From: Megasphaera hutchinsoni
GTDB taxonomy: Bacteria; Bacillota; Negativicutes; Veillonellales; Megasphaeraceae
DNA: 64,000 nt
Assembly: GCF_001553405.1 (NCBI RefSeq)
Contig: NZ_KQ960952.1
Span: 35,141 to 99,140 of the forward strand
Direction of reading: 5' to 3'
A program made the translations under genes and the position numbers. Positions 6,817-61,762 of the stretch are shown piece after piece. Numbering within the stretch: the stretch's first letter is position 1; the number at the start of each line of letters is the position of its first letter. The notes beneath the pieces are model-generated. The model did not search any database and had not been told where the DNA came from. It saw only the letters and a program-made list of their open reading frames with translations.

Positions 6817-6842
6817 GCAGGCGTTTGGAAATCCTTCGTAAA

Positions 6843-6985
6843 ATGGATAGCGCTGGTACCCTTTGGGTAGACGAGGAAGAGGTGTATCGAAAAGTCAGCG
6901 GATACCTCTCGGCAACTCCGGTCGTTAGGAAATGGCAAAACCTTTTGGCAACAAGAGGGACAAATCTGTTACGGGAGTGAGAATA
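6843..6985 (+). ncRNA. glmS ribozyme: glmS ribozyme (glucosamine-6-phosphate-activated)
   Basis: The 5' leader of glmS carries the conserved segments of the glmS self-cleaving riboswitch in the right order: the cleavage-site region AGCGC (cut expected just before G6850), then GTAGACGAGGA (6868-6877), GTGTATCGA (6882-6890), CAGCGGAT (6896-6903) paired with the ATACCTCT strand, and a 3' pseudoknot half with AATGGCAAAA and CAACAAGAGGGACAAA. It ends about 45 bases before the glmS start. When glucosamine-6-phosphate is abundant the RNA cleaves itself and the mRNA is degraded, giving feedback on glmS. An open frame through this region (6750-6980) is a by-product of the RNA. Confidence 0.9.
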
Positions 6986-28085: not shown

Positions 28086-28430
28086 ATGAGTATGAAAGAC
28101 AATCGCTGGTGGAATACATCAGAGGAAAGTCCGAGCTCCATAGGGCAGGATGCCGGATAACGCCCGGCGAAGGTGACTTTAGGGATAGTGCCACAGAAAT
28201 GTGTACCGCCACGTATGTGGTAAGGGTGGAACGGTGCGGTAAGAGCGCACCAGCGGTATGGTAACATATCGGCTAGGTAAACCCCATCTGGAGCAAGACC
28301 GAATAGGGAAGAGATGAAGCGGCCCGCTGATCTTCCGGGTTGTGTCGCTGGATCATGTCAGTAATGGCATGACTAGATAGATGATTGTCGCTGCAGTAGC
28401 AGAACAAAACTCGGCTTATTGATTACTCAT
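28086..28430 (+). ncRNA. rnpB: RNase P RNA
   Basis: The catalytic RNA that trims the 5' leader of pre-tRNA. The universally conserved blocks are present in order: GAGGAAAGTCCGAGCTCC (CR I), GGATAACGCCCGGC, AGTGCCACAGAAA...ACCGCC, GGTAAGAGCGCACC, GGTAAACCCC, GGAGCAAGACC and the 3' CR V region AGATAGATGATTGTC...ACAAAACTCGGCTTA. The ends ATGAGTA and TACTCAT pair to form P1. A promoter and a terminator flank it exactly. Confidence 0.97.
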
Positions 28431-28431
28431 A

Positions 28432-28465
28432 CAAAAAAACCTCTCACATGAGAGGTTTTTTTTTG
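28432..28465. terminator. Terminator shared by rnpB and the converging receptor gene
   Basis: AAAAAAACCTCTCA and TGAGAGGTTTTTTTT form a 14-bp stem with a 2-base CA spacer at the apex. The A run on one side and T run on the other make it work in both directions, ending rnpB (plus) and the giant receptor gene (minus, stop at 28478). Confidence 0.9.
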
Positions 28466-57657: not shown

Positions 57658-58263
57658 TTAAGTTCCTAATATTTCAATAAACGCTTTTACTACTTCTGGA
57701 TCAAATAATAATCCAGAGGCACTAAATAATTCTTTAATCGCTTGTTGTTTGGTTTTTGCCCAAAATTGAGCGGCAGGATTAATGATGGTGTCATAATAAT
57801 CTGCCACGGCAATGATACGGGCACCAAAAGGAATATTAGAACCGCATAAATGACGAGGAAATCCAGAACCATCCCACCGTTCATGATGTGAACGAATGTA
57901 AGGAATAATATCCTGACAACAAGGGATGTTTTCTATCATATTGCTACCGGCTACTGCGTGACGCTTGTAAAGTGATTTTTCCGTTCGATTTAAATAGGGA
58001 TATTTGGATAACAATTGATTAGATAGAAATAATAAACCAATATCATGTAATAAGGCGGCATGTTTTATTTGGTCTATTTCACGTTTGGGCAAGGCTAATT
58101 TAGTTGCTATACTGACACTGTAATTAGCTACTTGTAGGCTGTGCATATATAAGCGTTGATTTTTTAATTGAATGAATTTTAACAGTTCGGCTGTAATTGT
58201 TTCCAATGAAGTTAGTTCTTCTTTGGCGATTCCAGCATACTGATTTAATGATAGCATATACAT
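57658..58263 (-). CDS. HD-GYP-like phosphohydrolase domain protein
   Basis: 201 residues, almost entirely one HD domain of the HD-GYP type. Visible ligands: His41, His73-Asp74 in LLHDIGLL, His102, His126-His127-Glu128 in RSHHERWDGSGFP and Asp155 in IIAVADYYD. Two signature positions differ from classic c-di-GMP phosphodiesterases: HDIGK is HDIGL, and GYP is GFP. The metal-binding residues are kept, so hydrolase activity is possible, but c-di-GMP as substrate is uncertain. There is no receiver or other sensory domain. It lies 33 bases downstream of the SpeD-like gene and is probably co-transcribed with it. Confidence 0.82.
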   Translation of the reverse strand: MYMLSLNQYAGIAKEELTSLETITAELLKFIQLKNQRLYMHSLQVANYSVSIATKLALPKREIDQIKHAALLHDIGLLFLSNQLLSKYPYLNRTEKSLYKRHAVAGSNMIENIPCCQDIIPYIRSHHERWDGSGFPRHLCGSNIPFGARIIAVADYYDTIINPAAQFWAKTKQQAIKELFSASGLLFDPEVVKAFIEILGT

Positions 58264-58296: not shown

Positions 58297-58791
58297 CTAT
58301 TTTCTTTTTTTGCGGTGAGATTGGTGTGGATGTCGTAACATGTGAAACATGGTTACACTTGTTTTTCGAATTTTTGATCCCGTTGTTTTCATGCGTCGAA
58401 TAGGGGTTATTTTAGTTCTTCTTTTGGGCTTCATATCACGAATGATGCCAAAATCTCCACGACGAATACTGGTGGCTTTAATACTATCTGAATGGAGAAG
58501 TAACTTTAAGGATCCCATCATATGGTTGATAGATAAGTCTGTATTAAAGCTATAAATGTCGATAGCTGCATAGGATAAAATCGTATAAAAATGAATACAT
58601 ATGTGTGCATTTTCCGAGATAGCGATACCTACTAGATCGCCATTACAAGGATAAGATTGCCAACTTAATAAGGGTAATTGAACGACTTCCAATGCACGTT
58701 GAGCCAAAGGCTTTAAATCATCAGGAGTGGTTAAATTGACCTTACAGTTGTAAAAATCGATGATCAAATGTTTACCTAATGTGTTTTTCAT
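58297..58791 (-). CDS. SpeD-like protein lacking the pyruvoyl-forming serine, with a basic tail
   Basis: 164 residues from the ATG ending at 58791 (GGGTGGG upstream). Residues 1-115 follow S-adenosylmethionine decarboxylase of the bacterial type: NTLGKHLIIDFYNC, then AISENAHICIHFYTILSYAA, and TSIRRGDFG at the end. In active enzymes the motif ESHLxIHxxPExGYAxxDV supplies the Ser that cleaves itself to form the pyruvoyl group. Here it reads ENAHICIH, so no Ser follows the Glu; the His (residue 67) is kept, and the catalytic Cys of the VYTCG segment is lost (IYSFN). Residues 121-164 form a tail with 17 Lys/Arg in 44 residues. It is probably not a decarboxylase; binding of SAM, polyamine or nucleic acid is speculation. 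Confidence 0.7.
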   Translation of the reverse strand: MKNTLGKHLIIDFYNCKVNLTTPDDLKPLAQRALEVVQLPLLSWQSYPCNGDLVGIAISENAHICIHFYTILSYAAIDIYSFNTDLSINHMMGSLKLLLHSDSIKATSIRRGDFGIIRDMKPKRRTKITPIRRMKTTGSKIRKTSVTMFHMLRHPHQSHRKKRK

Positions 58792-59103: not shown

Positions 59104-61698
59104 TTAATTTTGGGGTCCTTCAGGTGTTAGGGGAGTGAAGGTAAATGCTGAATTAGTATAATCAATGCGAACAGTATTACCTTCTTTTATAGTACCCGCG
59201 ATAATATCTCGACTCAGGGCAGTTTCTATCGTACGAGCAATTACACGGCGTAAAGGTCTAGCACCAAATTGTGGATCAAATCCTTGTTCAGCCAATTGTT
59301 TTAAGGCTGCATCAGAACATTGTAACCGGATATTAATTTGTTTTTCAAGGCGTTGGCTAAGACGGCGTAACAACATGTCTGCAATATGTAATACTTGTTC
59401 TTTTTGGAGTCCTTTGAATATAATACAATCGTCTACGCGATTTAAAAATTCTGGACGAAAATATTGTTTTAATAACTGGTGTACAGATGCTTCGGCTGTT
59501 TGATTATCTTTTGCATTTAAGATTTCATGAGAACCTAAGTTACTAGTCATAATTATAATGGTATTTTTAAAGTTTACCATGCGACCTTTACCATCGGTTA
59601 AACGACCGTCATCCAATATTTGTAAAAGAACATTAAAAATGTCAGGATGAGCTTTTTCAATTTCATCTAATAAAATTACGCTGTAGGGATGACGCCTTAC
59701 GGCCTCCGTAAGTTGGCCGCCTTCATCATAGCCGACATATCCGGGAGGTGCTCCAATAAGCCGAGATACGGTGTGCTTTTCCATATATTCGGACATATCA
59801 ATGCGAACAATATTGCGTTCATCATTAAAGAGTACTTCTGCCAAGGCTTTAGCTAATTCTGTTTTGCCGACACCCGTAGGTCCTAAAAAAATAAAGGAGC
59901 CAATGGGGCGTTGCGGATCTTTTATACCTGCCCGAGCACGCAAGATTGCATCACTTACAATTTGTACTGCTTCATCTTGTCCAATTAATCGTTGGTGTAA
60001 TGTTTCTTCAAGGTGTAGTAATTTTTCTCGTTCTCCCGTTAGCATTTTGGCAACAGGAATACCGGTCCAACGACTTACGACTTGTGCAATATCTTCTTCA
60101 CTTACTTCTTCTTTTAGTAATTGGGCATCTTGGTGATTAGAGAGATAGGTTTCTTGTTCCTTCAATTTTTTTTCTAGTTCTGGTAATTTCCCATATTTTA
60201 ATTCCGATGCCTTTTCTAAATTATATTCTCGTTCGGCCTTTGTCATTTCTCCTTTTACGGCATCAATTTCTTTTTTTATCGCTTGGGTACGTAAAATTGC
60301 TTGTTTTTCTGTATCCCATTTTTCATTTAACGATTTTTCTTCTTCCTGTAATTCTACTTTTTTCTTTTGGATTTTAGATAGTCGTTCTTTTGATGCGTCA
60401 TCGGTTTCTTTGTTCAATGATTGTTCTTCGATTTCTAGTTGCATTACTTTGTGACGTAACTCATCTAACGGAGCTGGCATAGATTCAATTTCTGTACGTA
60501 ATTTAGCGGCTGCTTCATCGACCAAATCGATGGCCTTATCGGGAAGAAACCGATCTGAAATATAACGGTCTGAGAGTACGGCTGCAGCAACTAAAGCGTT
60601 GTCACGAATACGTACACCATGATGAACTTCATAGCGATCTTTCAATCCCCGTAAGATAGTGATTGTATCTTCAACATTAGGCTGATTTACCATAACGGGT
60701 TGAAAACGCCGTTCTAAGGCAGCATCTTTTTCAATATATTTTTGATATTCGTTTAAGGTTGTTGCCCCGATACAACGAAGTTCGCCTCGGGCTAACATCG
60801 GTTTTAAAATATTGCCAGCATCCATAGAGCCTTCTGAGGCACCAGCCCCAACTACTGTATGTATTTCATCAATGAATAATAAAATTTGTCCATCCGATTG
60901 TGCGATTTCATTTAGTACAGATTTTAGGCGTTCTTCAAATTCGCCCCGGTATTTTGCTCCGGCAATCAAGGAACCCATATCTAGTGAATATAGGGTTTTG
61001 TTTTTTAATGATTCTGGTACATCACCACTGACAATACGCCGAGCAAGACCTTCGGCGATAGCCGTCTTGCCTACACCAGGTTCTCCGATTAATACAGGGT
61101 TATTTTTGGTGCGACGGGATAAAATTTCAATGGTACGGCGAATTTCATCGTCTCTTCCGATTACGGGATCTAATTTGTTTTTTTGTGCCGCTTCGGTTAA
61201 ATTGGTACCGTATTTTTGTAAGGCGTTATAACTGTCTTCTGGATTATCGCTGCCAATTCTTCCTTTGCGATGTTGTTTTAATGAGGTTAGTACACTATCT
61301 TTGGTTAAACCAAAGGTACGACAAATGGATTTGATTTCTTCATCACCGTCCTGAACAATCCCCGCTAAAAGATGTTCCGTACTTATATAATCATCTTTAA
61401 GCGAATCGGCGAGTTGTTTGGCACGACCTAAAACTCTTATCATTTCGGTTGCCATGGAGAGGCGGCTTTGTCCTTGAACGGCAGGTATTGCGTTTAAGTA
61501 TTTTTCAAGGCGAGCTTGTAGCATGGGAAGATCCGTATGACAATCTTGATATATGCTAGTTAATATACCTTCTGGGGTGGTAATGAGGGATAATAATAAA
61601 TGGGCTGACGTTATTTCTTGATGATAACGTAACGCCGCATTTTGTTGAGCATTTTGTAATGCTGTTAAGGCTTTTTGTGTATATTTTTCATTATCCAT
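59104..61698 (-). CDS. clpB: ClpB protein disaggregase
   Basis: 864 residues from the ATG ending at 61698, preceded by AAGGAGG; an in-frame upstream start at 61719 lies before that site. Clp N-domain at about 1-145 ([11 protein letters not shown]), first AAA+ module with [15 protein letters not shown] and [14 protein letters not shown], a middle coiled-coil M-domain at about 405-520, and a second AAA+ module with [16 protein letters not shown] and [13 protein letters not shown]. Works with DnaK to rescue aggregated proteins. The promoter region carries AGTC repeats that could be a heat-shock operator. Confidence 0.98.
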
Positions 61699-61762
61699 AT
61701 ATATGACCTCCTTATCCAATATATTGGATATATATCATTGTTGAATTCTTATTACATTTTTT

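Follow-up and report, generated by a model that had tools for sequence, protein, structure and literature searches.

A SpeD-like protein with a class-wide basic tail in Negativicutes is probably a non-enzymatic derivative of AdoMet decarboxylase

Introduction

What becomes of an S-adenosylmethionine (AdoMet) decarboxylase once the serine from which its pyruvoyl cofactor is formed has been replaced? The question is raised by a gene in a 64,000-nucleotide stretch of Megasphaera hutchinsoni DNA, the whole of which is referred to here as the window. A sequence-only reading of this DNA had described its product as a SpeD-like protein without the self-cleaving serine and with a basic C-terminal tail, possibly a sensor of AdoMet or polyamines or a protein binding RNA or DNA. 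PMC10407285 names Ser63, H68 and C83 as essential for self-processing. Here, the fold, the active-site residues, the tail, the distribution and the genomic context of the protein are considered together with those of its relatives in the class Negativicutes.

Gene, fold and active site

The SpeD-like open reading frame and its features are collected in Table 1. A GTG codon 9 bases upstream of the ATG is a possible alternative start, and relatives align with the ATG. Residues 8-112 match Pfam AdoMet_dc with 58 bits (cut-off 25), and TIGR03330, the NCBIfam equivalog of the B. subtilis-type SpeD, gives 44 bits, which falls short of its 75.65 cut-off. The AlphaFold2 model of the window protein, built from 42 sequences, has pLDDT values mostly above 90 in the core and of about 45-60 in the tail. 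Its best PDB matches by Foldseek are the T. maritima SpeD structures 1vr7, 1tmi and 1tlu (E 2.3e-9 to 2.9e-9; TM-score by target 0.81-0.82), and the prozyme structures 5tvm and 6bm7 are also among the fold matches. The model thus shows a protein that keeps the SpeD fold, and the earlier statement that the fold-defining parts are present agrees with both the Pfam match and the closeness of the model to T. maritima SpeD.

Table 1. Features of the tailed SpeD-like gene and its two neighbours (positions in the window)
Feature	Position	Strand	Remark
SpeD-like ORF	58297..58791	-	164 aa; ATG at 58791, stop 58297-58299
Class 1b SpeD-fold core, residues 1-111	58459..58791	-	AlphaFold2 and Foldseek
Residues 60-63, ENAH	58603..58614	-	Asn at Glu62, Ala at Ser63, His64 retained
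Phe82 replacing catalytic Cys83	58546..58548	-	alignment with T. maritima SpeD
Class-specific C-terminal tail, residues 112-164	58300..58458	-	alignments; RGDFGxxxDMKP from Arg111, basic segment after
HD-GYP-type phosphohydrolase-like gene	57658..58263	-	HD_5 120 bits; neighbour mainly in own family
clpB, upstream neighbour	59104..61719	-	TIGR03346 1317.7 bits, cut-off 1232.1

Residues were referred to T. maritima SpeD, with which the window protein was aligned. Asn61 of the window protein takes the place of Glu62 and Ala62 that of the pyruvoyl-forming Ser63, and both His63 (His64) and His67 (His68) are retained. The reading of the ESH motif as ENAH is correct in that the serine is gone, but there is no insertion, and the glutamate of ENAH lies one place upstream of Glu62. 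The loss of the catalytic cysteine, also claimed earlier, is seen as phenylalanine at its position. Judged by these residues, the window protein is very unlikely to act as an AdoMet decarboxylase.

The same positions were then counted over the family, for which 161 loci yielded 123 distinct proteins after identical ones had been merged. The Ser63 position is occupied by Ser in 44, Gly in 40, Cys in 13, Ala in 10, Phe in 9, Thr in 5, and Val and His in one each, and the complete E-S-H-H-C set is found in just 24 of the 123. Within the order of the window's genome, serine remains in only 12 of 48 distinct proteins and the Cys83 position is Phe in all 48, while outside it the 75 proteins include 40 with Gly and 32 with Ser at Ser63.

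These residues bear on a ligand-sensing regulator, in which occupation of the old pocket by AdoMet, a polyamine or a nucleotide would alter what the tail holds. The persistence of His64 (138 of 142 tailed proteins) and His68 (137 of 142) even where Ser63 and Cys83 are lost is consistent with such a role, as is the constraint on both core and tail. However, Phe49, Glu62 and Cys83 are not retained across the tailed family as a whole, and the residues that are retained may be structural only. The position of T. maritima Phe49, which we take to be the SAM-stacking residue, is Phe in all 18 canonical proteins and in only 41 of 142 tailed ones, which weakens the earlier suggestion of SAM sensing. 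Ligand sensing is regarded as unlikely.

A class-specific basic tail

The tailed family is defined here by Arg111, the stretch RGDFGxxxDMKP and a basic tail some 37-62 residues long; the window protein, which carries the motif RGDFGIIRDMKP and a tail of 53 residues, belongs to it. The 17 Lys/Arg counted previously in the C-terminal 44 residues are confirmed (residues 121-164), the extension recurs class-wide in relatives, and the calculated pI is 12.0 for the tail (112-164) versus 6.95 for the core (1-111). Arg111 is present in 142 of 142 tailed proteins. Among the 123 distinct proteins, the DMKP core is near-constant and RGDFG is replaced in part of the order (e.g., by RGNINP and RGKVDP), and the mean fraction of the commonest residue is 0.64 for residues 104-138 versus 0.48 for 1-103. 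By this alignment, RGDFGxxxDMKP and the basic segment are the best-conserved part of the family. The tail is absent from all 18 other homologues compared, 15 from outside the class and three second copies within it, every one of which has E-S-H-H-C.

A helix is possible at residues 140-153 of the AlphaFold2 model, at low confidence, and the tail is again of low confidence in a second model, that of a member from a Negativicutes metagenome-assembled genome (MAG; locus L124). The idea that the tail is a known or mobile domain was rejected. Its best match in the PDB, an entry named PLZ2.3 that aligns in four short repeated stretches, was judged to be due to chance, every Pfam match is below the cut-off, and a search of 16 relatives with the tail only found the SpeD-like gene in 15, with one weak second match (genome G006, E 0.003). 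An amphipathic membrane helix was likewise rejected, as the observed hydrophobic moment was reached in 13 to 625 of 1000 shuffles for nine proteins, of which two (L001 and L030, with 140 and 79 residues used) include pre-tail residues and are not tail-only. No signal peptide or membrane segment was noticed in the window protein when its sequence was inspected by eye.

Distribution and evolution

A protein search detected orthologues in 58 of 60 relatives, including all 52 complete ones. With a profile of 29 sequences, the tailed gene was found in 283 of the 300 genomes sampled from the class, 223 of the 227 complete ones and 92 of 97 genera. A scan with one genome per species gave 51 confirmed loci, among them Veillonella, Megasphaera, Anaeroglobus, Pelosinus, Propionispira and Phascolarctobacterium, as well as some soil MAGs titled 'Bacillota bacterium'. 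In a sample of the phylum, 195 of 299 genomes have a match; among the matches listed outside the class, all end at or before model position 125, save two that cross a stop codon. These two (G499 and G420) were considered as tail bearers and rejected, the genes themselves being tail-less. The tailed SpeD-like protein is a near-universal, class-wide marker of Negativicutes and is not indispensable, because four complete genomes of the class lack the gene. The conservation in related genomes that had been proposed as a check thus extends to both the serine loss and the basic tail across the class, though the residue at Ser63 varies.

In a FastTree phylogeny of the core only, the 142 tailed proteins form a group of their own, separate with a support of 0.70 from the 18 that have no tail. 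Changes between Ser and non-Ser at position 63 number 10 by Fitch parsimony and 23 if regain of serine is disallowed, both being rough counts in view of that support. The tree indicates that the residues for self-processing and decarboxylation have been lost repeatedly within the tailed branch. The tail was most likely acquired before the serine was lost, because it is found in every branch and the losses are scattered.

The ratio dN/dS is 0-0.18 in the core (17 of 18 close pairs computable) and 0-0.19 in the tail (15 of 18), the remaining pairs having saturated synonymous sites. Purifying selection acts on the core and the tail alike. A functionless relic in slow decay might be suspected from the repeated loss of catalytic residues; it is contradicted by these ratios, by the near-universal retention of the gene and by the invariant residues of the tail, and is considered extremely improbable. 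Recent random decay, which the sequence-only reading had named as the outcome that would refute it, is not what is seen: serine loss and tail are both class-wide and dN/dS does not exceed 0.19. Its central proposal, a non-enzymatic SpeD derivative with a real basic tail, gains support from the residue loss, the class-wide tail and the same ratios. As a member of the tailed branch, the window protein is probably such a derivative, with a role that differs from that of the decarboxylase.

Polyamine genes in the same genomes

Besides the tailed gene, the window's genome encodes an intact SpeD of the E. coli type (TIGR03331, 430 bits; cut-off 255.8) and SpeE. This arrangement recalls the trypanosome prozyme, in which, as reported in PMC5201418, a dead SpeD paralogue can control the active SpeD, and it could be imagined that the tailed protein likewise binds and controls the active enzyme of its genome. 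However, that enzyme is of the longer class 1a and not a close paralogue, and no operon shared by the two genes was seen. Over 120 genomes of the class, PF02675 matches number at least two in 87, one in 31 and none in two; three of the 31 lack a tailed match, so the tailed protein is the only SpeD homologue in 28. Ser63 is absent in all 26 of these that were read (G104 and G118 were left out). Because it stands without another SpeD homologue in those 28 genomes, the tailed family does not serve generally to activate AdoMet decarboxylase, and the activator role, drawn by analogy, seems improbable.

Of the tailed-only genomes, 24, all at least 90% complete, were checked for polyamine genes: NspC is present in 16, SpeE in 15 and neither in 8, and all 15 with SpeE also have NspC. 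Occurring without another SpeD homologue in 28 genomes, and without both SpeE and NspC in 8 of the 24, the tailed protein is independent of AdoMet decarboxylation genes and outlives spermidine synthesis. In the 15 genomes with SpeE (including G001, G069, G089 and G098; loci L234-L239), nothing was seen that would supply decarboxylated AdoMet, so their SpeE may use another donor.

The same gap could be taken to favour a decarboxylase that derives its cofactor from another residue or works without one. Against this, the Ser63 position is Gly in all 20 tailed-only proteins compared for this purpose, and in the 123-protein alignment a conservation of 85% is not attained by any further Ser, Thr or Cys within residues 50-82. 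The co-occurrence with NspC also counts against it, as does the single cluster annotated in full with NCBIfam (L235), where SpeE lies beside nspC and a carboxynorspermidine synthase-like gene. The carboxynorspermidine synthase/nspC route needs no decarboxylated AdoMet. An alternative decarboxylase is thus very improbable.

Genomic neighbourhood

The gene had been described as paired with an HD-GYP-like protein. The two are indeed same-strand neighbours in the window, but a shared system is not supported, the HD-GYP gene being near the tailed gene in only 10 of 61 loci; nine of these belong to the window's own family, and in all nine it follows the tailed gene. By eye, the HD-GYP-like protein has the HD residues and GFP where GYP is usual. 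The commonest neighbours over the 61 loci are ctsR (26), mcsA (23) and mcsB (22), mostly oriented away from the gene; others are tRNA synthetases, SUF genes and rubrerythrin. The neighbours give no consistent partner, and guilt by association says little.

Membership of the CtsR regulon was considered and rejected: matches to the operator sequence that we assumed for CtsR number 3 in the window against 2.43 expected, none of them near the gene, and the ctsR of the window's genome lies elsewhere. At Rfam gathering level, no known regulatory RNA such as a SAM riboswitch precedes the gene in the window, and no riboswitch adjoins the tailed gene in 24 further loci. The sole Rfam matches in the window, a glmS ribozyme aptamer and an RNase P RNA (6838-6982 and 28087-28433), are far away and ordinary. 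In one member of the class, the tailed gene and a raiA RNA (L121:10340-10543, 193.7 bits) are about 3.8 kb apart.

An rRNA operon is found about 1-6 kb from the tailed gene in five of the 24 loci scanned (L103, L104, L110, L115 and L116). In draft genomes, 16 of 32 contigs of at least 20 kb have the tailed gene within 4 kb of an end, against 5.2 expected; the excess looks as if rRNA repeats break the assemblies there.

The context also concerns an envelope factor for polyamine-modified peptidoglycan, which might, for instance, handle putrescine or cadaverine for lipid II. Polyamine-modified peptidoglycan is typical of Negativicutes, which carry putrescine and cadaverine on it (PMC10628300). 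The distribution of the tailed gene coincides with the class, and the gene is present even where spermidine synthesis is missing. However, no envelope genes occur among its conserved neighbours, neither export signal nor membrane segment was noticed by eye, the amphipathicity of the tail lies mostly within shuffled controls, and distribution alone is weak evidence. This role is rated as quite unlikely.

Comparison with known SpeD relatives

The class 1b AdoMet decarboxylases (SpeD/SpeH of T. maritima and B. subtilis; TIGR03330) share with the window protein the fold, the core length, His64/His68 and an RG motif at the domain end. Unlike them, the window protein lacks Ser63, Glu62 and Cys83, carries the class-specific tail and falls below the TIGR03330 cut-off. 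The likeness to the trypanosome prozyme is that an inactive protein of the SpeD family exists beside an active SpeD of the same genome, a co-occurrence that holds in the window's genome and fails in 28 of 120 genomes of the class; in contrast to the prozyme, the tailed protein is bacterial, of class 1b size and tailed.

SpeDA and SpeDC are described in PMC10407285 as SpeD homologues neofunctionalised to pyruvoyl-dependent arginine and ornithine decarboxylases, in which S63, H68 and C83 would be expected to persist. The window protein resembles them as a SpeD homologue with a changed role, but has lost two of the three residues. The same paper reports fusions in Victivallis vadensis (Lentisphaerota) with a degraded C-terminal SpeD domain, which resembles the window protein in being bacterial and in lacking critical residues of the active site; it is a fused second domain, whereas the window protein is free-standing, tailed and class-wide. 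A text search of the paper returned no mention of Veillonella, Negativicutes or prozyme. Judged by titles and the beginnings of abstracts, mostly outside subscription papers, no description of a serine-less tailed SpeD family of Negativicutes was found.

A possible role in polyanion binding

Our preferred reading, put forward tentatively and at a little less than an even chance, is that the tailed protein serves as a scaffold with the SpeD fold and no catalytic activity. Its basic tail would bind RNA or some other polyanion, and the protein would have a housekeeping function that has nothing to do with making spermidine. SpeD proteins are dimeric in general, and the core would probably act as a dimeric scaffold presenting disordered, strongly basic tails. 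These tails might bind a polyanion, most likely RNA in the form of ribosomal RNA, tRNA or mRNA. The RGDFGxxxDMKP stretch could anchor the tail on the core or on a partner, with the Lys/Arg-rich segment after it making contact with the target. Nucleic-acid binding by the tail, as suggested in the earlier reading, is a plausible candidate function, and the RNA-binding reading as a whole is of moderate probability. Counting against it are the failure of the tail to match any known domain, the low confidence of its predicted helix and the want of a partner that recurs among the neighbours. Alternative targets of the basic tail could be membrane, an acidic protein or precursors of peptidoglycan. 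In lineages with E-S-H-H-C, the tailed protein may still also be an enzyme.

Conclusions

Tailed proteins pass the Pfam AdoMet_dc cut-off and can hence be annotated and counted as AdoMet decarboxylases, which would falsely imply spermidine synthesis in species of the class without it. Running from E-S-H-H-C by way of Gly to full loss, with the tail present at each stage, the series offers a natural record of an enzyme becoming a non-enzyme, and the order of events is testable because the tail is found in every branch, including those with an intact active site. It is possible, though doubtful, that this class of diderm Firmicutes recast a polyamine enzyme as a non-enzymatic core protein that binds RNA or the ribosome: the basic tail would have been added before the active site was lost and would have fixed the gene, after which Ser63 would have been lost many times independently, including in species without recognisable spermidine synthesis. 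The finding also marks a conserved, class-specific protein in human-dwelling genera such as Veillonella and Megasphaera.
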